A stretch of DNA of 64,000 nt from the IMG/VR virus record IMGVR_UViG_3300045008_000200, positions 19,214 through 83,213 of that record, one strand, 5' to 3'. Positions 18,339-41,365 of the stretch are shown piece by piece. Each line of letters begins with the position of its first letter. Position 1 is the stretch's first letter. Position numbers and translations under genes: made by a program. Below the pieces are notes generated by a model that had not been told where the DNA came from, did not search any database, and was given only the letters and a program-made list of their open reading frames with translations. Origin of the DNA: a virus.

Positions 18339-21300
18339 ATGGCTCCTAGAATCATGCAACAGCCGTTCAACGGGGACTACTCGCAGGACTTGTTTTCCGA
18401 GCGCAAACAGTTCCTTGGTGCGCTTTTCCAGCAAGGCAAGAAGATCATGGACGCTGACTGCAATGATTCCACCGTGGCTCTGGTGGGACGGTTGCAGCGC
18501 ATGATTCAGTCGGCCTTTCCCGCGCAGGCGGTGGGGAAGGCGTTTCAAATCATTCAGTCTCCGACTGCGACCACCAACAATTTCTTGGTCCGCGGGTGCT
18601 GGGAAGACGGCTTCTACGCGCAAGCGGCGCTCCCTGAGACCTATGCCAAGCTCTTCATCGGCGGTCTGTGCGCCCTCATCTCCAACTGCACGACCACCAC
18701 GGCGGGAAAAGAGGGCATTGAATTTGCCTGGACGGGGCCGACTACGGGTGGCGGGGAATACATCGCTGGGGCGCTTCACCATCGGAGCACGGCGCTCGCC
18801 CCCTTGGTCTTGACCGATACCAACGCTCGATTCGTGGTCAACTCCCTCAAGGGCATGACGCTTGTTCCGTCCGTGCCCGTGGGGGGTGCACACACGTACC
18901 AGATTCTTTCCAACACGGAAACGCAGATCACGGTGGTTGATCTTGGCGGCACGGACATGACGCTTTTTGCGTCTGCCGGGGAGTTCTACCGCATCATGCC
19001 GTCCACGCCCATTGCGGGTGGAGCCGGACAAGGACGCCGTGACTTGGTGTTTTTGGATGTGTACGTGGGGGAAATGGACTCCGCGGAAGACTCCACGCTT
19101 CTGCATCCCATCGCCGGTGGTTACGAAGCGGCGCGGCGCATGGTGATTCGACAGCAGGTGTTGGTGCGCGAGAACAAGGACGGATCGGGAAACGATGTGC
19201 TTGGGACACTGGCTGACCCGGCGTACACGCGCCCCGGCCTCCCGTGGGCGAGTGATCCCACGGCGACGGAGAGCTACTATCAGGATGGGAACGGACAGAC
19301 GCATTATTGCGTGGCTTTGGCGGAACTTTCCCGTCCGCAAGCCGACGCCACTCTTGTCACGGCGTACATCACCGACCTGCGTGACCCATACTTCGGCTCT
19401 TCACGGGAAGTGGTGGAAGCCCGCCGCGGGTACGACAACCTCTATGACAGCATTGAAGCCGCGGAAAACAAGCCTTCCCGTGCGATGGCGCTTCCCCATG
19501 AAGCCCCGACTCCGGTGACGCTTTCTCAAACCAACGTCTTGCAAATTACTGACACGGCCTACGTTGGCGAATCTGTGTCCGACAACATCAAGGAGACGTT
19601 GAAGCTCTTTGAGTACGATCCGCAGCACCCGTCCGTGACAAGCCGGAATCCGTTGCGTGGCGATCCGGCTTCTCTCATCTCGCCCATCACGTCTTACGCC
19701 AGTTTGACCGGACAAGACTTGGCGGTACGGATGCGCGATCCCGTCACGGGGGCAGTGGTCAGTTCCACCGTGGGAAATTTCGGTGGCTGTGCGTCTCCGC
19801 TCACCGCGGCGCAGTTGGTGACACTGCTCAATGGCACGGTGTTCCCGGCCATGACCATCACTTTCTCCACCGGCGCTGTTGCCCTCAGTACGGTGTTGGT
19901 GGCGCAGGAGATTCAGAGCAAATACCTTGGATTGCGCTCTCTCATCACGGGCCGGTATTCGTACATCGAAATTCTCTCCACGTATCCAATCTCCAATCTG
20001 TTCGGCACCATTGATCCGGCCACGCATTTCTATCAGAAGTTTGCCGCCTACGAAGGGCCGGGTAACACGTTTTCGTCGGTGCGCACACACTCCGGGTTGG
20101 AACCGGAAGTGGTGGACATTGTGAACGCCGGGGGTACCAGCATCATCGGCGGCACGACGACTCCGCACTTCTTCCTCAATCCGTACTTCTGCTTCGACAT
20201 GATCTTGAACGTGCAGGCGATTGCACGTTACGGTATCAAAACGACCTTTGCCACGGAGCCGTCCAAGGCGTACATGCAGCGCGATCTTCACAACGGTCGG
20301 TCGCAACTGGATTATCGCTTGCAGGTGGAGCATGATGTTGACGGACAGCATCAGCGGGGGTTTCTTACTGAACCCATGATTGATCTCGGCATTGGTGCCG
20401 ATCAGGTTAGCGCGGCTTCCATTCGTCTCTTTGCCACCATCACCAACGTCGGTCTTGCCGATGTGACGACCATTCAACAGGCGCTTGAGGCGGTCCTTCC
20501 GCTGGCTGGCGGAACGCTTACGGGACTGCTCACCATCAACGCCGGTGTGCCGGTGGGTCTGAATCTCTCCGCTTCGCGCATCGCATCCGTGGCCGATCCG
20601 GTGAATCCGCAGGATGCCGCGACCAAAGCCTACGTGGACATGGTGGCCGCTGGTCTGGACATAAAGCCGTCTTGCGTGGCTCTCTCTGACACTCCGGGGA
20701 CGCTTGCCACCGATTTCAAGGCGGGGGATACGCTGGATGGCGTGGTATTGGGCTTGGGACAGCGCATTTTGCTCACCGCTCAGGCCGATGCCAAGGAGAA
20801 CGGCATTTGGGTGACGACAAATGCCGCTCCGACACGTCCGGCGGATTTCAGCCCTACGACTCCGAATACCACCGGTTCGTTGGTTTTCATCGAAGACGGT
20901 ACGAACTACCACGATACGCAGTGGGTGATGACCACGTATCCCGATCCGGTGATTGACACCGACGCGAATGACTGGACGCAGTTTGCCGGGGCGGGGACGT
21001 ATGTGTGGCGAGACGGTATTGACGCCACGGGCATGACCGTGGACGTGAAGGTGCTGGCTCCCATCACGATCAGCGGTGGCATCGGTTCCGGCGGCGTCGT
21101 GATGCTTGATTACTCCCGCCTGTTTCAGCTTGTGGCGAATGTCTTTGACGTGGACTCCGGGGAGCTTGCCGGGACTGGTTTGGAAGTGGGGCCGTCCATT
21201 GACACCTATTCCGGGCCTTTGCGCATCGCGGCGGCTGCGGCGGGGAACGGTCTCACTGGTGGTAGCGGTTTCCCCTTGGCGGTGCTGGCGAATCCGACAA

Positions 21301-23177
21301 ACGCGAGTATCACCGTGGGAGTGGCGGGAGTATCGGTGCGGTACAACGCCGCTGCCGCTTTGACGGTCGGAGCTTCCGGTTTGGCCGTAAACTCCACCAT
21401 CGCGGGTGGCGGTTTGACGTGGGCGGCGGGTGTTGTGGCAGTGGGAGCCGGTGACGGTATCACGGTCAACGCCGATGACGTTGCTGTAAACAACGGAAAC
21501 AACTTGGGTTTTGATGGGTCTGCTCTGGTTACGCTTGGTGTGTCTTCATGGGTGTCCGGTGATTCGGGCACAGTGAGCAATGTCAACCGACAGGTCATAA
21601 TCGGGTCGTCCGGTTCGCAGATTGTTAGTGTTCCCCAAGGGAGCATCATTGCTTCCGAGTCTTCTGCTATGGTCGGGCCTATTACGGGAGAAGAGGATGT
21701 TGCCATTCTTGCTTCTTCTGACGTGATTATGTGGGGCGCGATGGAGCAGGTGGCTTTTGTCGGGGTTTACGATTGCGATGTGAGCTTTCCATCCGCGGCC
21801 ACCGGCACCACCGTTCGTCGGGCCATCGTGGGCGGTTCTACCACCAGCAACTTGACGGGGGATGATGATTCCGCTCGTTTATATAATACGGCTATGTTCG
21901 CCTGCGTGGATGGGTACATTACGGCCAGTGAATCCAATATCAACGAAGCCGCGGTGATCGCTTCTGACGGCAGCGGAATTTTGGCGGATGCTTATACCAT
22001 TAACGAATCCGCGGTAATTGCATCTAAGGATAGTGAGATTGATAATACCAGCACTGGCGCTTCGCAGAACGTGGGACAGTGTGGGCTTTTTGCCACATCC
22101 AATTCCACAATAGATCATGGGCTTACGTCTGCTGTTGTTGCGTCTTCGTATGGTTTGGTGGGTCGCGGATCGCATGATGGGGATATTTTTAACTCTGCAA
22201 TCTTGGCGTCTTATGATGTGGACATGGGGTACGGAAACTACACTGGCGGTGTTCATAACTGTGCCATCGTCGCTTCCCGCGACGGATGCCGTGTTACGGC
22301 CCGTAGTACCTATGATACATATAGCTGTGCCATCGTTGCTTCGGATGATACCTGCGTGGTGGACGCGACTGCTGGAAATACAAATCAAGTTTTGATTGCC
22401 GCGTCCGACACGGCGACTGTAGGTGATGAAGTGACGATTGGCCTCACTATGTTGTCCACTTATAATTCGGTGCCGAATAATATCCCGCGGCCCATTTCTG
22501 GCATTTATGATGACTTACCAAGTTACTCAGTGCAGGGCGTTTACAACAACGGTGAAGCGTGGGCGCTGGATACGGTGGACGGGGATATTTATTGCACCGG
22601 CGCTTTGTACGATGGATGGGCACCCGATTATGCGGAGATGTTCGAGAGTGCGGATGGATTGAGCATCCCGGTCGGCACCTTGGTCACATTCGATGAGGCT
22701 TCGCCGGACAAGATCAGGGTTGGGAAGAAGGGGGATGACTACCTGTTGGGGGCCGTTTCTGCGACGGCTGGTGTGGTGCTTGGGTCGGCGTCTCTCCTTT
22801 GGGCCAAGAAGTTTGAACGTACCGAGTTCGGTGAGGATATTTATGAGGATGTTCCCGATACGGCATGGACACCGAAGGAAGGCGAGATTGAGGAACAGCG
22901 CCCGAAGATTCGTCAAAAGAAGCTGACGAAGGACTACGACCCTTCCAAGAAATACATTCCCCGTGTGAAGCGCAGTGAGTGGCACACTGTTGGCCTTGTC
23001 GGGCAGCTTTTGGTTCGGTGTGACGACAAATTGAAAGCGCGGGATTGGGTCGGATCAGACAACGAAGGTCGGGCTACCCGTTCACAGGAGCGTGGGATGG
23101 GCTGGCGGTGCATGGCGATTCAGGTGCCGTATGACGCTGATAAGGGGTACGGTGTGGCTCTCATAATGGTTCGCTAA
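18339..23177 (+). CDS. Very large tail fiber/appendage protein with C-terminal autocleavage-type (Peptidase_G2-like) domain
   Basis: 1612 residues from ATG 18339, chosen over GTG 18333 because AAGGAG is then 9 bases away. N-terminus: FNGDYSQDLFSERKQFLGAL and GKKIMDADCND resemble the DUF6519-type attachment domain found beside contractile tails. Residues about 760-880 match fiber repeats (ATKAYVDMVAAGLDIKPSC, KENGIWVTT). Residues about 1080-1390 repeat xAIVASxDxxxV every 20-30 residues, a probable beta-helix. The last 200 residues (APDYAEMFE, GDDYLLGAVSATAGV) match the Peptidase_G2 chaperone domain that cuts itself off after trimer folding. Likely the host-binding appendage. Confidence 0.85.
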   Translation: MAPRIMQQPFNGDYSQDLFSERKQFLGALFQQGKKIMDADCNDSTVALVGRLQRMIQSAFPAQAVGKAFQIIQSPTATTNNFLVRGCWEDGFYAQAALPETYAKLFIGGLCALISNCTTTTAGKEGIEFAWTGPTTGGGEYIAGALHHRSTALAPLVLTDTNARFVVNSLKGMTLVPSVPVGGAHTYQILSNTETQITVVDLGGTDMTLFASAGEFYRIMPSTPIAGGAGQGRRDLVFLDVYVGEMDSAEDSTLLHPIAGGYEAARRMVIRQQVLVRENKDGSGNDVLGTLADPAYTRPGLPWASDPTATESYYQDGNGQTHYCVALAELSRPQADATLVTAYITDLRDPYFGSSREVVEARRGYDNLYDSIEAAENKPSRAMALPHEAPTPVTLSQTNVLQITDTAYVGESVSDNIKETLKLFEYDPQHPSVTSRNPLRGDPASLISPITSYASLTGQDLAVRMRDPVTGAVVSSTVGNFGGCASPLTAAQLVTLLNGTVFPAMTITFSTGAVALSTVLVAQEIQSKYLGLRSLITGRYSYIEILSTYPISNLFGTIDPATHFYQKFAAYEGPGNTFSSVRTHSGLEPEVVDIVNAGGTSIIGGTTTPHFFLNPYFCFDMILNVQAIARYGIKTTFATEPSKAYMQRDLHNGRSQLDYRLQVEHDVDGQHQRGFLTEPMIDLGIGADQVSAASIRLFATITNVGLADVTTIQQALEAVLPLAGGTLTGLLTINAGVPVGLNLSASRIASVADPVNPQDAATKAYVDMVAAGLDIKPSCVALSDTPGTLATDFKAGDTLDGVVLGLGQRILLTAQADAKENGIWVTTNAAPTRPADFSPTTPNTTGSLVFIEDGTNYHDTQWVMTTYPDPVIDTDANDWTQFAGAGTYVWRDGIDATGMTVDVKVLAPITISGGIGSGGVVMLDYSRLFQLVANVFDVDSGELAGTGLEVGPSIDTYSGPLRIAAAAAGNGLTGGSGFPLAVLANPTNASITVGVAGVSVRYNAAAALTVGASGLAVNSTIAGGGLTWAAGVVAVGAGDGITVNADDVAVNNGNNLGFDGSALVTLGVSSWVSGDSGTVSNVNRQVIIGSSGSQIVSVPQGSIIASESSAMVGPITGEEDVAILASSDVIMWGAMEQVAFVGVYDCDVSFPSAATGTTVRRAIVGGSTTSNLTGDDDSARLYNTAMFACVDGYITASESNINEAAVIASDGSGILADAYTINESAVIASKDSEIDNTSTGASQNVGQCGLFATSNSTIDHGLTSAVVASSYGLVGRGSHDGDIFNSAILASYDVDMGYGNYTGGVHNCAIVASRDGCRVTARSTYDTYSCAIVASDDTCVVDATAGNTNQVLIAASDTATVGDEVTIGLTMLSTYNSVPNNIPRPISGIYDDLPSYSVQGVYNNGEAWALDTVDGDIYCTGALYDGWAPDYAEMFESADGLSIPVGTLVTFDEASPDKIRVGKKGDDYLLGAVSATAGVVLGSASLLWAKKFERTEFGEDIYEDVPDTAWTPKEGEIEEQRPKIRQKKLTKDYDPSKKYIPRVKRSEWHTVGLVGQLLVRCDDKLKARDWVGSDNEGRATRSQERGMGWRCMAIQVPYDADKGYGVALIMVR
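20212..20225. repeat. 14-bp dispersed palindrome (one mismatch)
   Basis: TGCAGGCGATTGCA inside the fiber gene; differs from the consensus at position 5 only. Confidence 0.6.
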
Positions 23178-32453: not shown

Positions 32454-33740
32454 ATGGCGACTTCCTGGCTCCGAGTTTCGCTCCGTTCGATCACCAATCC
32501 AACCTCTACTTGGAGTCCGGCGAACGAGCCACGATCAACCATTCGTTATGTAGATGTATCTGCAATCTCTCGCGAGCGCCTATCTGTCGTTCTTCCGGAC
32601 GAGAAACCTGCCTCGACTGCGCCAAGCAGAGCGAGGAAGAAAATTCAAATGGGCGATACTCTCTTCGCAACGATCAGGCCGAGCCTGAGACGTGTCGCTC
32701 AAGTCCCGGTTTCGCTCGACGGCCAAATTGCTTCGACAGCGTTCTGCGTATTGCGCCCGAATCTGGTCTTCGTCGATCAAGATTTCCTGTTCTTCGCTAC
32801 CGTCGAGGACAGCTTTATTAGTTCGGTTTCGGCCCTCGAAACGGGAGCAAGTTACCCTGCAGTTCGCGACTCCGATGTTCTTGACCAAGAGATTGCGTTG
32901 CCGCCCGTGCATGAACAACAACGAATTGTCTCCGTACTGCGATTGGTGCGAAAGGCGTTGTTACAGCACATCGACTTGACCGAGCGCACGCATGACCTGA
33001 AGGCCGCCGCCATGCGCGAGCTTTTCACACTTGGCCTTCGCTCCGAGCCGCAGAAGGAGACGGGAATCGGATTGGTACCGGGGAATTGGGAGGTCTGTCG
33101 GCTCGACCAACATGCGAAGGTGGTCTCTACCAGGATGTCTTACACGGAATTGGAGTCTAGCCCAGACCATGCCCCTGACGGTGCCATCAAAGTCTTGGGA
33201 ATCAAAGTGTCGGACATGAATTCACCCGGCAACGAGTGTGAGATCCGCACTGGAGCTACAGAACGTCCCATTGCAGAAAAAGATATTGATCATTATTGCG
33301 CTCCACCGGGAACAATTGTTTTCCCGAAAAGGGGTGCCGCGATTGCGACAAACAAGAAGCGCTTGACTGCCGAATGGAGTGTGTTCGATCCCAACGTTAT
33401 TGGCGTGGTACCCGAAACCATCGACCGTCGCTATCTCTTCCATTGGTTCCAGATGTTTGACTTGCGATCAATTACCGAGCCGGGACCGACACCGCAGTTG
33501 AATAAAAAGCACCTTGAACCGCTGTTGATTCCTGTGCCTATAGCAAGAGATGAGCAAGTAGAGATTGCACAGATCCTCGACACCATCGATCACAAGATCG
33601 ACCTGCATCGCCGCAAGCGCGCGCTGATCGAGGAGTTGTTCAAGTCGCTGCTGCACAAGCTGATGACCGGCGAGGTCTGCGTCGCTGACCTAGACCTATC
33701 CGCGCTGCCATCGGATGCTGTTAAAGAGGCAAGACAATGA
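32454..33740 (+). CDS. hsdS: Type I specificity subunit HsdS
   Basis: 428 residues from ATG 32454; GTG 32448 is an alternative overlapping the hsdM stop. It has two target-recognition halves, each ending in a conserved helical region: LPPVHEQQRIVSVLRLVRKA near 145 with LKAAAMRELFTLGL, and IARDEQVEIAQILDTIDHK near 365 with RALIEELFKSLLHKLMTGEV. These helices form the dimer-like ruler that holds two HsdM subunits. The target sequence cannot be predicted. The end overlaps the Nudix gene by 4 bases. Confidence 0.92.
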   Translation: MATSWLRVSLRSITNPTSTWSPANEPRSTIRYVDVSAISRERLSVVLPDEKPASTAPSRARKKIQMGDTLFATIRPSLRRVAQVPVSLDGQIASTAFCVLRPNLVFVDQDFLFFATVEDSFISSVSALETGASYPAVRDSDVLDQEIALPPVHEQQRIVSVLRLVRKALLQHIDLTERTHDLKAAAMRELFTLGLRSEPQKETGIGLVPGNWEVCRLDQHAKVVSTRMSYTELESSPDHAPDGAIKVLGIKVSDMNSPGNECEIRTGATERPIAEKDIDHYCAPPGTIVFPKRGAAIATNKKRLTAEWSVFDPNVIGVVPETIDRRYLFHWFQMFDLRSITEPGPTPQLNKKHLEPLLIPVPIARDEQVEIAQILDTIDHKIDLHRRKRALIEELFKSLLHKLMTGEVCVADLDLSALPSDAVKEARQ

Positions 33741-34225
33741 CCACGATCAAGATTAGTGAAGCTGGTTCGGTCCAGTTCCCGATGGATGCTCGCAACATCC
33801 TGCTCGGCATGAAGAAGCAAGGCTTCGGCATGGGGCGCTTCAACGGTTTCGGTGGAAAAGTGCTGTTCGATGAGGCAGTGGTGAACGCTGCCATACGAGA
33901 GCTTTGGGAAGAGGCGCGGGTGTCCGTGCAACCGTCTGCACTGGACTTGTGCGCCATCTTGTCGTTCTATCCCTACCGCTGCCGTGTCCACGTTTTCCGT
34001 CTTGTGGTGGACAACGTATTGCAGCTTCCGTTTGCGGAGAGTGACGAAATGCTCCCCAAGGTATTCGCTCAGACGGAGATTCCCTACGCCTCCATGTGGA
34101 CGGACGATCCACTATGGCTTCCTCTTGTCTTACGGGGCTTTCGATTGCATGGCACCTTCCACTTCGGAGAGGATGACACGGTGAAAGAGTGGCGTATGAA
34201 AGGCTTGCCGCCAATTTTCCCGTGA
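33737..34225 (+). CDS. MTH1-like Nudix hydrolase (8-oxo-dGTPase type)
   Basis: 162 residues. The Nudix box (GX5EX7REUXEEX) is at about 39-61, with REL-WEE intact and Arg where Gly usually stands near its end. Beyond the box it resembles animal MTH1/NUDT1: ILLGMKKQGFGMGRFNGFGG before it, then RVHVFRL, AESDEM, MWTDDPLWLPLVLRGFRLHG after it. MTH1 clears oxidised purine nucleotides. It overlaps hsdS (ATGA), so it may have moved with that block or be part of phage nucleotide metabolism. A palindrome-like TGCAACCGTCTGCA at 33927 is weak. Confidence 0.85.
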   Translation: MTTIKISEAGSVQFPMDARNILLGMKKQGFGMGRFNGFGGKVLFDEAVVNAAIRELWEEARVSVQPSALDLCAILSFYPYRCRVHVFRLVVDNVLQLPFAESDEMLPKVFAQTEIPYASMWTDDPLWLPLVLRGFRLHGTFHFGEDDTVKEWRMKGLPPIFP

Positions 34226-36159: not shown

Positions 36160-36197
36160 GTGGGCTTTCCGTGCTTGCGACTAAAACATGGCAGAAA

Positions 36198-36228
36198 GGC
36201 GGAGCGTGCCTGCTCCGCCTTTTCTTTT
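36198..36228 (+). terminator. Rho-independent terminator
   Basis: GGCGGAGC (36198-36205), loop GTGCCT, GCTCCGCC (36212-36219), then TTTTCTTTT. A perfect 8-bp GC-rich stem followed by a T-run. It ends the transcript from 35610 and separates it from the promoter at 36233. Confidence 0.88.
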
Positions 36229-36232
36229 GGTG

Positions 36233-36261
36233 TTGCCACTCCTGCGTTTGTCCCTTATAAT
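36233..36261 (+). promoter_or_regulatory. Strong sigma70-type promoter of the glycine-tag gene cluster
   Basis: TTGCCA 36233-36238, 17 bases, TATAAT 36256-36261, a consensus -10. It lies directly after the terminator and 46 bases before the start of gene 36308. It has neither the GTGT spacer end nor the palindrome, so this cluster is outside the regulated set. Confidence 0.75.
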
Positions 36262-36307: not shown

Positions 36308-36556
36308 ATGGCGAAAGGAACGGCAGGCGGTGGTGGCGGGATCGAAGTGGTGAAGCCGGGCGGTGCGTTCATCCGTCTTCCCGGCGGTGCTCGCATCCCT
36401 ATCACGGCTCCGGGCGGCGGCTTCCGCATCACTGGCCGTCGTGCTCCCGCGGCGCGGCGTCCGGCTGGTGCTGGCGGCGGTGTCATGGGCACGATCCGGG
36501 GTGTGGGACAGGCGATTCGTGCTCGGCTCAATCGGATTATCGGTCGCCGCGGCTAG
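36308..36556 (+). CDS. Gly/Arg-rich basic protein, 82 residues, first of the cluster
   Basis: ATG 36308 has AAGGAG 7 bases ahead; the earlier in-frame start at 36284 does not. It begins MAKGTAGGGGG, similar to the MGKGR tag of the next genes. The body is very basic, with GGGFRITGRR and a final amphipathic helix (MGTIRGVGQAIRARLNRIIG) resembling membrane-active or nucleic-acid-binding peptides. Function unknown. Confidence 0.7.
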   Translation: MAKGTAGGGGGIEVVKPGGAFIRLPGGARIPITAPGGGFRITGRRAPAARRPAGAGGGVMGTIRGVGQAIRARLNRIIGRRG

Positions 36557-36592
36557 TCTTCCCGTGAACCTGTCCCTATAAAGGGGTGAAGC

Positions 36593-37147
36593 ATGGGCAA
36601 GGGACGATCTGGCGGCGGTGGCGGCGGTGGAGCCGCCGTCGTAACCCGCGACAAAGAGAAGGCGGCTGCGGGGTACAATGAGGACACCCGCAACCTCAAC
36701 TTCGTCACGGACCATTGGCAGTCCGGTGCTATCGCTGCGTCCATCATCACGGGTGCGGGGAAGGCGATGGAACAGAGCCTTGTGGATCGTGGCCGTCGCG
36801 GTGATCCTGATTGGCGCGGTTATCGGGCGAATCGAAACCCCACCTACAATGCGTTTCGATTCAATGGCGTGGCGAAGATGGTGGCCCGTCCTGAGTGGAA
36901 TGATCTCACCTTCCGCTTCGGACGCGAAGGCTCGCCGGTGCTCTACGTCAAAGGGTCGGAAGCGCGTTTACAGGAGTTTTCTCGCGCCATCAAACGGCAT
37001 CGCCCGGATGAAAACGGGATTGACCGATTCCCGATGCGGGTGAAGCGCGATGCGCGTGGCGATGTCGTGTATAAAAACGCGGAGCGGACAGCGCACGTTT
37101 CGGAACGTAACCCGATGCAAGGCACTCTCCGTGTCTGGTGGGACTGA
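36593..37147 (+). CDS. Glycine-tag protein A, 184 residues
   Basis: N-terminal tag MGKGRSGGGGGGGAA. The body is related to that of 37461-37985: both have TYNAFRF, then a segment ending in (T/S)F(R/K)FGRE-SPVLYVKG, and both end RVWWD or RLWWD. It therefore arose with that gene by duplication. No known family is recognised. Start ATG 36593 follows AAAGGGGTGAAGC. It is co-transcribed from 36233. Confidence 0.78.
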   Translation: MGKGRSGGGGGGGAAVVTRDKEKAAAGYNEDTRNLNFVTDHWQSGAIAASIITGAGKAMEQSLVDRGRRGDPDWRGYRANRNPTYNAFRFNGVAKMVARPEWNDLTFRFGREGSPVLYVKGSEARLQEFSRAIKRHRPDENGIDRFPMRVKRDARGDVVYKNAERTAHVSERNPMQGTLRVWWD

Positions 37148-37155
37148 GGTAAGCG

Positions 37156-37461
37156 ATGGGCAAAGGACGAAGCGCGGGTGGTGTGGGTGGAGCAGTAAAT
37201 ACTAAACCACTGGTGTTGGTGCGTTACGGGTATATGCCAATAACACTCTCAAACGATGGGCGTACTTGGTACACAACCATCCAAGCTGTTTCTGGTCAGG
37301 AGTACGGCGTTGGACGAACAACGGCTCAAAAAGAAGCAGACAAGACGAATCGCATTCGTCGTGAAAAGGGTGATGATGTGGCGAGGCGGTCTCACGCTGC
37401 GTGGTTGTCGCGGTTCGACAAGGCTGTTCGGGACGAACTAAAGCGTAGTGGCGGTCGGTAA
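37156..37461 (+). CDS. Glycine-tag protein B, 101 residues
   Basis: N-terminal tag MGKGRSAGGVGGA, then an unrelated body with YGYMPITLSNDGRTWYTT and a basic helical end (KTNRIRREKGDDVARRSHA). Start 9 bases after protein A; the stop overlaps the next start (TAATG). Function unknown. Confidence 0.75.
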   Translation: MGKGRSAGGVGGAVNTKPLVLVRYGYMPITLSNDGRTWYTTIQAVSGQEYGVGRTTAQKEADKTNRIRREKGDDVARRSHAAWLSRFDKAVRDELKRSGGR

Positions 37462-37985
37462 TGGGCAAAGGACGAAGCACAGGTGGAGCAGGCGGCGGAG
37501 CGCCGGGAGTACGTCCCGCCGGTGGTGGTTTTTCCTTGGCCGCGGCGCGTGACGTTGACCGTGTGGAAAAGATTTTCAACGGCAGTATCGGTCCCATGCA
37601 CGGAGTTTATTCCCGACGCTACTACAAGGGGGCGGCTGCGGCTGAGATGGTCATGGCCGGAGCGCGGGGCACCGGAAGCCCGACGTACAACGCCTTCCGA
37701 TTCAGGACGATGGCTGCGGCGATGCGTGATCCTGCCTTTGCCGGTCTCTCCTTCAAATTCGGGCGTGAGTATTCCCCGGTGCTCTACGTGAAGGGGCCGG
37801 AGGCACAGCTTCGGACCTTCATGACACGGCACGGGCGCACGGCGGATGAGAAGTGGATTGTGCCGAAGGATGCGCGGGAGATCGTGCGGGGTCGTCGGGG
37901 CAATGCTTTGCTTGACGCCACCGGAACCGCCGTTCGCACGAAGGTTAGTCCGTTCCGCGGACAGCTTCGGCTTTGGTGGGATTGA
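37461..37985 (+). CDS. Glycine-tag protein C, 174 residues (paralogue of A)
   Basis: N-terminal tag MGKGRSTGGAGGGA. The body parallels protein A: SPTYNAFRFRTMAAAMRDP, LSFKFGREYSPVLYVKG, and the end GQLRLWWD. The paralogues are separated by protein B, so the cluster has been duplicated and shuffled. Function unknown. Confidence 0.78.
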   Translation: MGKGRSTGGAGGGAPGVRPAGGGFSLAAARDVDRVEKIFNGSIGPMHGVYSRRYYKGAAAAEMVMAGARGTGSPTYNAFRFRTMAAAMRDPAFAGLSFKFGREYSPVLYVKGPEAQLRTFMTRHGRTADEKWIVPKDAREIVRGRRGNALLDATGTAVRTKVSPFRGQLRLWWD

Positions 37986-38012
37986 GTGCGGGCACCTGCA
38001 CGGGAGTAGCGC

Positions 38013-38597
38013 ATGGGCAAAGGACGGTCAGGTGGTGGGATGGGCGGCGGGGCCGCTGCGAACATGAATCGCGCTGTGCCTTCTCTGCCGAGCCAGTTGA
38101 TCGGCGGGGTTTCCGAGAAGCGCACAAAGGCCGCTGCGGAAAAGTTGGCGGAGCATCTTGCTCTGACCATCCCCGGACGTGATCTGCGGGCCTTCACGGA
38201 GCGGGAGCGGGCGGCAATGAACACGTTGCCGCGGCGTTCTCCTGCACGGTTGGCGTCTGAGCCTTCCTTGAAGGTGTATGAGCGGGCGTTGGCTTTACAG
38301 CGCGGGGCCGGGATCGTTCCTATCACCTTCAAGGTGCTGCGCACCATGCCGGGACCGGGGCGATTGGGACCGGCGGAACAGGCGCGTGTGGCCCGCGGTT
38401 TGGCGCTGCGGCACACCGGGGAAGACCTGCGGGCGCTGGCGACCCATGCGCGTAAAGATGCCACGGATATTCGTGCGGCCATGCGTGGGGCTTCAAATCC
38501 CTTGCTTGCACGCCGCATCAAGGTACTCGAATACCGGGCAAGGGTGCTGGATCAAGCTGTCAGATACGCTGATGAGTTCGCAATTACACGCCCGTGA
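38013..38597 (+). CDS. Glycine-tag protein D, 194 residues
   Basis: N-terminal tag MGKGRSGGGMGGGAA, followed by an all-helical, Ala/Arg-rich body (EKRTKAAAEKLAEHLALTIP, AEQARVARGLALRHTGEDLR). No relation to A and C in the body. GGGAG precedes ATG 38013. Function unknown. Confidence 0.75.
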   Translation: MGKGRSGGGMGGGAAANMNRAVPSLPSQLIGGVSEKRTKAAAEKLAEHLALTIPGRDLRAFTERERAAMNTLPRRSPARLASEPSLKVYERALALQRGAGIVPITFKVLRTMPGPGRLGPAEQARVARGLALRHTGEDLRALATHARKDATDIRAAMRGASNPLLARRIKVLEYRARVLDQAVRYADEFAITRP

Positions 38598-38610
38598 TGG
38601 GGGTTGACGG

Positions 38611-38703
38611 ATGGGTGACAAGGGCCGGGCAGGTGGCGGTTTGCGGCGATTCCGAACTCTACCAAGGGGTCTTTGCGTCTTTGGTGGGATTGAGCGCGGA
38701 TAG
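38611..38703 (+). CDS. Glycine-tag mini-protein, 30 residues, probable remnant
   Basis: MGDKGRAGGGLRRFRTL and a TAG stop at 38701. The tag is present with one inserted Asp, but no body domain remains, so this looks like a truncated copy or a peptide made of little more than the tag. Confidence 0.5.
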   Translation: MGDKGRAGGGLRRFRTLPRGLCVFGGIERG

Positions 38704-38721
38704 CCGTGTAGGAGGTTTGTG

Positions 38722-39348
38722 ATGGGAAAAGGACGTGCTGGCGGTGGAATGGGCGGTGCCGGTGGGATGACGCAGAGTGAGCGTGACCGCGCCGAGATCG
38801 CACGCGAAGTCCGCCGGAACAGGGCGATTGACCTTCGTTCCATGCTTTCCGCCAATCGTCCTCTCGGTGCCACCCTTGAGGGACAGGCTTCGGAGATGGC
38901 TCGGTCCACTCGAAGCACTGAAAGCGTTGACCGGGCGCTTCGGGTGAGCCGTGATCTGCTTTTGCGGACACAGAGGGATGTGGCTTCCGGTATGACCATC
39001 CCCGCCGGTGACATGCTTCAACTGAGGATTCAGGTGGCCCGTGACAACCGTGCTCTGTACCTGCGTGGCCGTGACGCCGTGGATGCGGTGAATCGCACTG
39101 GCTGGCATACGGCGACGGACGGACAGATTGGTGCGATTGGGCACTACTTCGCCGGGTCGCGGGGCATCACTCAGATGCGGGGACAGATTGCCACACTTAC
39201 TCGACGGGCTGCGGAAGCGCGGACTTCCGGTGAGTCGGCCACAGCTACCCAAGGCAGACGCAATGCCATTGCCGCCTTGCAGAGAGGCTACAACCTGCGG
39301 ATGGAAGCACGACAGTTCGGACGTGACTTTACCCGTGCGGGTGGGTGA
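38722..39348 (+). CDS. Glycine-tag protein E, 208 residues
   Basis: ATG 38722 with GGAGG 6 bases ahead. N-terminal tag MGKGRAGGGMGGAGG, then a helical, charged body (ERDRAEIAREVRRNRAIDLR) and an Arg/Gln-rich end. The stop overlaps the next gene (TGATG). Function unknown. Confidence 0.75.
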   Translation: MGKGRAGGGMGGAGGMTQSERDRAEIAREVRRNRAIDLRSMLSANRPLGATLEGQASEMARSTRSTESVDRALRVSRDLLLRTQRDVASGMTIPAGDMLQLRIQVARDNRALYLRGRDAVDAVNRTGWHTATDGQIGAIGHYFAGSRGITQMRGQIATLTRRAAEARTSGESATATQGRRNAIAALQRGYNLRMEARQFGRDFTRAGG

Positions 39349-39542
39349 TGAAAGTACCTGCGTTGACCACCCCCGCACTCAACCTGATTCGACGGCTCCC
39401 TCTGCCTTACGCCATGCTTCCCAAGGTGTTGAAGGCGGAAAGGGCTGTTCCTACGCAAGCCGGGGGTGGGGTGCCTACCTCTGCCCAGGACACTCCCGTT
39501 CCCACGGAAAAGCATGAGAGTGGGGATACCCTCAACCCCTAG
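39348..39542 (+). CDS. Small Pro-rich protein, 64 residues, last of the cluster
   Basis: Starts in the stop of protein E. Begins MKVPALTTPALNLIRRLPLP and continues Pro/Thr-rich without a tag or known domain. The overlap suggests it is translated with the cluster. Confidence 0.5.
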   Translation: MKVPALTTPALNLIRRLPLPYAMLPKVLKAERAVPTQAGGGVPTSAQDTPVPTEKHESGDTLNP

Positions 39543-40450: not shown

Positions 40451-41365
40451 ATGATTGCTGGTGAAGAACCGGGGAAGCGGGACGGACAGCAGCCCTCTCA
40501 GTTTGGCGAGGGTTGGTCTCAGTGTTTTCTCTGGCATAGGCGTTGGCCGGTGGCCTCCGGCGTGTGGCTCCTTCTCCTTCTCGGCATCGTCACGAACGCC
40601 TTGTGGTGGTGGAATTACGAACAGGAAACGACGGAACACGGGCAGCATCATGCGGAATTGTCGTCGCTTGAAGCTGACACCACAAAATACAAACGGGAGA
40701 TTGAGGTTCTTGAAGGTGCCGCCGATGTATTGCGGCAGGAGATTGAAAATGCTCCCTCCAAAACAACGGTACGAGTTGTACGGATCAGTGACGAACGCGG
40801 CCCCACGGCTTTACCGCCGGGTACGCCGCCCGATCACGAAAATACACCGACACCGGAGCCGCTGCCACTCGACTGCATAACCTGTTTCCGGCAGGTGGAG
40901 ATACCCTATCAGTTCACGAATCAATACGTGGTCCTCACCGACCTTTTGCGTTGGAACGAGCGGGCGCAAACCTTGGAATCCGACCCCGATCACCGCGCCA
41001 TTCGTTTCACCCCGGAGTTCAATCGCGCCTTGGTGGATGCCGGTATTGCCGGATTCGTCACTTATGACAACCGGGTGGCGCGCGCCCGTTTCTTCTTTGG
41101 GGTGGACGGTGGCGTGGCCCTGGCCGACACCCCGGTTTTCGGCGTGGGTGCCGGTCTTGAGTTCCTGAATTTCGAGAAATGGATTCGTGCGCCCATCGGG
41201 CTGCAAGCGGGCTTCTTCGGCACACCGATGGACTGGTGGCAAAGCCACGCTTCCCTTGGTCTTAGTTGGCGTTTCGTGCGCAACGTGAGCCTGAATCTTT
41301 CCTACGGACGGGCGTGGCGAACGAATCAAGTGCTGCTCGGCTTGAGCGTGTACCCTTTCGACTAG
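40451..41365 (+). CDS. Single-pass membrane protein with coiled coil and beta-rich end, 304 residues
   Basis: A 30-residue cytoplasmic start and a membrane helix near 33-55 (VASGVWLLLLLGIVTNALWW) are followed by a coiled coil at about 58-100 (LSSLEADTTKYKREIEVLEG), a Pro-rich linker and a CITC pair near 140. The last 100 residues alternate aromatic and small residues in the way of outer-membrane beta strands (GVGAGLEFLN, SLNLSYGRAW, LGLSVYPFD). The layout could span a Gram-negative envelope, as spanins do, but no spanin family match is seen. AAGGAG lies before ATG 40451. Confidence 0.7.
   Translation: MIAGEEPGKRDGQQPSQFGEGWSQCFLWHRRWPVASGVWLLLLLGIVTNALWWWNYEQETTEHGQHHAELSSLEADTTKYKREIEVLEGAADVLRQEIENAPSKTTVRVVRISDERGPTALPPGTPPDHENTPTPEPLPLDCITCFRQVEIPYQFTNQYVVLTDLLRWNERAQTLESDPDHRAIRFTPEFNRALVDAGIAGFVTYDNRVARARFFFGVDGGVALADTPVFGVGAGLEFLNFEKWIRAPIGLQAGFFGTPMDWWQSHASLGLSWRFVRNVSLNLSYGRAWRTNQVLLGLSVYPFD

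Follow-up and report, generated by a model that had tools for sequence, protein, structure and literature searches.

The internal proteins Ip1-3 of phage T4 are described as having nothing in common but an N-terminal packaging leader, and as being injected into the host, where they inhibit different GmrSD restriction enzymes (PMC12373910). For incorporation into the head, the first 10 residues of IPIII suffice, and the T4 internal proteins are both basic and poorly conserved among relatives (PMC9026906). In phage P1, which carries several different cargo proteins, an N-terminal segment of DarB of no more than 30 residues brings a reporter into the capsid (PMC9024508). Similarly, gp53 and gp54 from the phiKZ-like phage SPN3US possess an identical 15-residue N-terminus, and N-terminal propeptides may target ejection proteins in this phage (PMC5694885).

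Here, an uncultured phage is described in which at least six basic proteins begin with one short Gly/Arg-rich N-terminus. The first-pass annotation of its DNA knew of no described family with such a layout; however, the T4 proteins Ip1-3, which are united by a common N-terminal leader only (PMC12373910), provide a precedent.

The phage and its tagged genes

The window, meaning the whole stretch of 64,000 nucleotides that was analyzed, comes from a virus record of 83.2 kb, of which it covers bases 19214-83213. Another record, G001 (86.9 kb), shows more than 99.9% identity to this one in their overlap but has a different start point, and the two records combined imply a genome of about 104 kb that is either circular or permuted. 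The presence of genes for a portal, major capsid protein (MCP), sheath, tape measure, baseplate, DnaB and DNA polymerase identifies a contractile-tailed phage. Its head genes have distant kin in Streptomyces phages of the Karimac type, while the kin of its TerL are found in Vibrio and Stenotrophomonas phages, in both cases with identities of at most 45%. A head maturation protease/scaffold ORF is also present, its function having been assigned from its sequence and its place among the genes.

The portal protein is 941 aa long (L015:6244-9066 in G000, upstream of the window), and its residues ~279-600 find matches among DnaB, terminase and DarB-like records, while the flanks match portals. This insert is probably an intein. 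A portal-terminase fusion was rejected, since the insert matches DnaB and DarB-like records as well as terminases, as would be expected of an intein. Separate parts of a 1612-aa protein (window 18339-23177) match pre-neck appendage, head decoration and tail fiber families.

All ORFs of the first-pass annotation were recovered at their coordinates, and each of its five tagged ones (genes A-E, Table 1) starts MGKGR(S/A)xGGxGG. Gene Z, to which a looser version of the tag had been ascribed, is indeed a loose match only, yet it heads the unit that contains the tagged cluster. The five exact tag starts lie within 2.2 kb, and the stop codon of B overlaps the start of C (TAATG). The set is larger than the first-pass annotation had it, as a further tagged gene, F, lies apart from the others near the terminase genes; in G001 it is found 4.7 kb upstream of TerL, and its neighbors are DNA-metabolism genes that include those for RuvC and a ParB-like nuclease. 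Z and A-F have pI values of 10.3-12.0, as compared with a median of 6.9 for the 121 predicted ORFs of the phage, 20 of which exceed a pI of 10.

Table 1. Positions of the tagged genes and of associated features (window coordinates unless a record is named).
Feature	Position	Strand	Description
Terminator-like hairpin	36194..36223	+	Intrinsic type, 13-pair stem and T run; divides the cluster from the upstream unit; terminator-like sites in the phage overall are no more frequent than in shuffles
Sigma70-like promoter	36233..36261	+	TTGCCA-N17-TATAAT, 11/12 consensus, without operator-like spacer
Z	36308..36556	+	82 aa, MAKGTAGGGGG (loose tag), pI 12.0
A	36593..37147	+	184 aa, MGKGRSGGGGGGG, pI 10.3, paralogue of C
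B	37156..37461	+	101 aa, MGKGRSAGGVGGA, pI 10.5
C	37461..37985	+	174 aa, MGKGRSTGGAGGG, pI 11.1, paralogue of A
D	38013..38597	+	194 aa, MGKGRSGGGMGGG, pI 11.5
30-aa ORF	38611..38703	+	Reads MGDKGRAGGG...; probably what is left of a third A/C-type gene after deletion of its middle
C/A 3'-end repeat	38671..38699	+	LWWD-stop region; DNA repeat families D3 and D6
E	38722..39348	+	208 aa, MGKGRAGGGMGGAGG, pI 11.6
Untagged 64-aa ORF	39348..39542	+	Start overlaps E stop; probable last gene of the cluster unit
F	G001:33171-34244, outside window		357 aa, MAGKGRASGAAGGGGG
Operator-type promoters	23803, 27988, 28415, 35579(-), 35610, 44185(-), 44215, 44573, 51012, 52423, 59078, 63122		More copies lie beyond the window

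Two other ORFs lie near the cluster. The protein encoded at window 40451-41365, adjoining it, has a hydrophobic segment at its N-terminus, a stretch resembling a coiled coil and a C-terminus that may be similar to an outer-membrane beta-barrel; its only matches were below threshold (spanin-like, E=0.18, in PHROGs; under the cut-offs in Pfam). The ORF at window 33737-34225 was taken for a Nudix-type hydrolase by sequence inspection only. T4 ipII and ipIII likewise lie near a nudix gene, nudE, a parallel that is probably a coincidence.

The promoter of the cluster ends 46 nt before the ATG of Z. Genome-wide, a promoter-operator element was found in about 24 copies, TTGACAAGCC-N6-GGCGTGT-TAGATT (also given as TTGACAAGCC-N6-GGCGTGTTAGATT), in which the spacer is palindromic (ACACGCC-N6-GGCGTGT) and the -10 region extended; these copies suggest a phage-wide regulon under one regulator. 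On a matrix built on 22 such sites, which score 25.6-41.1, the cluster promoter scores 0.3. It belongs to a set of four strong sigma70-like sites that do not have the operator-like spacer and that each score below 1 on this matrix; in random sequence of equal composition, sites with at least 11/12 consensus positions occur at 0.13 per 104 kb strand. The other three precede the 66aa-protease/scaffold-MCP, 110aa-sheath and 113aa-tail-fibre operons, and the operator-free promoter type therefore groups the cluster with the major virion operons, as judged by consensus matches at n=4 sites. The portal gene does not lie behind a promoter of the virion type. Furthermore, the promoter upstream of F (G001:31821) is of the operator type, and regulation is thus not common to all of the tagged genes.

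Origin of the tag and divergence of the bodies

It had been noted in the first-pass annotation that the bases around the starts are alike. The 14-nt sequence ATGGGMAARGGACG does occur exactly at the five starts of A-E and nowhere else in the window. With up to two mismatches allowed, it has 10 matches in the window versus 2.1 expected, a count of 10 being reached in no shuffle, and the starts of F and E have GGAAAAGGACGTGC in common. In addition, the second glycine of the tag is encoded by GGA in 6/6 genes (A-F), a codon that accounts for 15% of Gly codons; its use in every tag despite this rarity implies that the tags descend from one ancestral sequence.

The minimum number of changes in tag codons 2-12 of A-E, counted as distinct states in a small alignment and with no tree, is 4, 4 and 17 at positions 1, 2 and 3 (17/25 at the third; P=4e-4 versus equal rates). 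When F is included, codons 2-5 show 0, 0 and 4 changes at these positions. The Ser codons of the tag switch between TCN and AGC, and the upstream ribosome-binding sites differ from gene to gene in the cluster. The third-position excess implies selection on the peptide, which was kept while the DNA drifted. By these measures of sequence, the tag is genuine, of common origin in the proteins that carry it, and conserved as a peptide.

Outside of this phage, the tag pattern was found neither in 40 related virus records nor at terminase-neighbor loci, and a search of all IMG/VR detected it at credible ORF starts in this phage only; four matches elsewhere lie in the interior of ORFs or within a 23-aa ORF. 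The tag thus represents a lineage-specific system, as far as these collections show. None of the known virion proteins of the phage carries it. The near-identical record G001 begins at window 37162, 6 nt into the tag of gene B; the repeated tag might vary at this point within the population, but an ordinary end of an assembly would account for it equally well.

Beyond the tag, the bodies are unlike one another except for those of A and C, as had been claimed. A and C share 40% identity (SW z=30.8), while all other pairs have z<2 (largest 1.9), so that D and E as paralogues are unsupported. The ORF at 38611, by contrast, had been regarded as a mini-version of the tagged proteins and is better read as a decayed A/C-type gene: its 3' end repeats that of C (38676-38699, 92% over 24 nt) and resembles that of A (38671-38694, 79% over 24 nt), and together with its tag-like start this is most simply explained by a third A/C-type gene that has lost its middle. 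The A/C pair and the decayed third copy show that gene duplication and loss occur within the cluster, and they lend some support to the earlier suggestion that payload genes could be exchanged via the repeated DNA.

No homologues of the bodies were found in PHROGs and Pfam (the Pfam scan covering Z and A-E). By tblastn against 50,697 phage records, bodies A, C, D, E and F gave no match and body B gave two, at chance level. The IMG/VR scans yielded no relative, the search with E returning near-identical G001 alone, and no relative was found in a GTDB scan, in which the sole hit (L108) was rejected as a chance match within a glycosyltransferase-like ORF. Comparison with the PDB similarly detected no relative and no known nucleic-acid-binding domain. 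A weak resemblance of D to phrog_6176 (E=0.04) was rejected because it is absent from all relatives checked. Structure prediction was poor and uninformative for A (pLDDT 57) as well as for B (pLDDT 62, one helix), and Foldseek with the A model returned nothing below E=0.001 and matched no known fold. Since all of the bodies are orphans, the tag is the sole present clue to their role.

Possible roles of the tag

The best-supported reading is that the tag acts as a capsid-targeting signal, similar in kind to that of T4, for variable cargo, and it is held here with about even confidence. The proposal of the first-pass annotation that one tag could direct different payloads to one destination is strengthened in part, by the conservation of the tag at the level of the peptide, the unrelated bodies, the uniform basicity and a promoter of the type that serves the high-copy virion operons. 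Capsid targeting also finds support in the head maturation protease/scaffold ORF and in the like pattern of the T4 ip genes (see below). Speaking against it are the operator-type promoter and DNA-metabolism neighbors of F, the portal gene outside the virion-type promoters, the small number of sites (n=4) behind the promoter classes, the known virion proteins that carry no tag, the dissimilarity of the tag to the T4 signal, its lack of a visible cleavage motif, and the poor models of A and B. The cluster would accordingly constitute an accessory-protein operon, in which a homologous tag of about 12 residues is placed on variable, strongly basic bodies, with F as a distant member. We infer that these proteins would be expressed with the virion genes, and that the tag would recruit unrelated cargo into the assembling head via contact with a head component, a core component or packaged DNA. 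The cargo would then be present in the virion and travel with it, could be delivered with the genome, and would probably serve early host or anti-defence functions. More tentatively, the tag may be an independently evolved cargo-loading signal, chemically unlike that of T4, which sorts many unrelated, fast-changing proteins into one virion, with new cargo arising as a new body is joined to the repeated tag DNA; this is possible, if somewhat improbable.

The uniform basicity could also be read differently, with the tag as a nucleic-acid-contacting tail, histone-tail- or RGG-like, on abundant intracellular DNA- or RNA-associated proteins that are not specifically virion cargo. The flexible, Gly/Arg/Lys-rich nature of the tag and the position of F among RuvC and ParB-like nuclease genes would agree with such a function. 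However, only two residues of the tag are basic, no known nucleic-acid-binding domain emerged from the PHROGs, Pfam and PDB searches, and the promoter of the cluster is of the type that serves virion operons; we consider a nucleic-acid tail rather unlikely. Alternatively, the tag might have no targeting role and be a relic of repeated duplication, its first codons being kept for translation initiation or as a recombination joint while the bodies diverged or were replaced. Common descent is clear from the six GGA codons, the A/C paralogues and the decayed third copy, and the tags do form a repeated stretch of DNA. Yet the dominance of third-position changes and the TCN/AGC switches of the Ser codons are not what a relic at the DNA level would favor, and the ribosome-binding sites upstream are not kept alike among the genes, so we judge this explanation unlikely.

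It is highly improbable that the tag anchors the proteins to a membrane or host structure, or that it is a modification signal. No hydrophobic segment is present within the tag, and although A-D begin MGKGRS and formally fit MGxxxS, the pattern used for N-myristoylation, this pattern is broken in E and F. Bacteria are not known to possess an N-myristoyltransferase, and N-myristoylation was rejected as belonging to the wrong domain of life. Gly-rich N-termini also occur in unrelated phage ORFs, but chance or low complexity with no common origin is a negligible explanation for the tag and was already refuted by the shuffle test, given the 14-nt identity at five starts and a match count that shuffles do not attain. 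The sharing of the rare GGA codon by every tag and the occurrence of the full pattern at credible ORF starts in no other IMG/VR contig speak against it as well.

If the tag does target the head, it would represent another short signal of this kind, unrelated to that of T4, and cargo loading through a common N-terminus would have evolved more than once. Head targeting would also provide a sequence handle with which to find the anti-defence proteins that uncultured phages inject, along with a loading peptide that is portable.

Comparison with known cargo-loading systems

In SPN3US, long, protease-cleaved propeptides are carried by paralogous bodies (paralogue family A), whereas most of the bodies described here are unrelated; pfam12699, the family of phiKZ-like inner-head paralogues, had no match among Z and A-E in the Pfam scan. 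The Dar proteins of P1 have no common N-terminal sequence by BLAST (PMC9024508), unlike the obvious, common tag of this phage. As regards DarA, DarB, DdrA, DdrB, Hdf and Ulx, the tblastn against 50,697 phage records, which may or may not include P1, gave no match for A, C, D, E and F and two chance-level matches for B.

The layout resembles that of the T4 internal proteins, which are also small and basic, with a common N-terminus of about 10 residues, bodies without homology, and poorly conserved accessory genes. As a control, the same tests were applied to the T4 ip genes and yielded a shared N-terminus (11/12 identical residues between ipII and ipIII), unrelated bodies, pI values of 8.9-9.5 and lengths of 95-193 aa. 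The tagged proteins of this phage are more basic than those of T4 and are encoded by one compact operon of 6-7 genes plus the distant F. Furthermore, the tag is Gly/Lys/Arg-rich and has no similarity to the T4 leader (local alignment scores of 5-13 against T4 N-termini), and while the T4 leader is cleaved off by the prohead protease at a motif with a terminal Glu, the signal of IPII and IPIII ending at Glu10, the tag contains no Glu and, by inspection, is followed by no common motif. Because the tag is unlike the T4 leader and shows no Glu cleavage site, the tagged proteins are not assigned to the T4 family, but are proposed to act in a similar manner.
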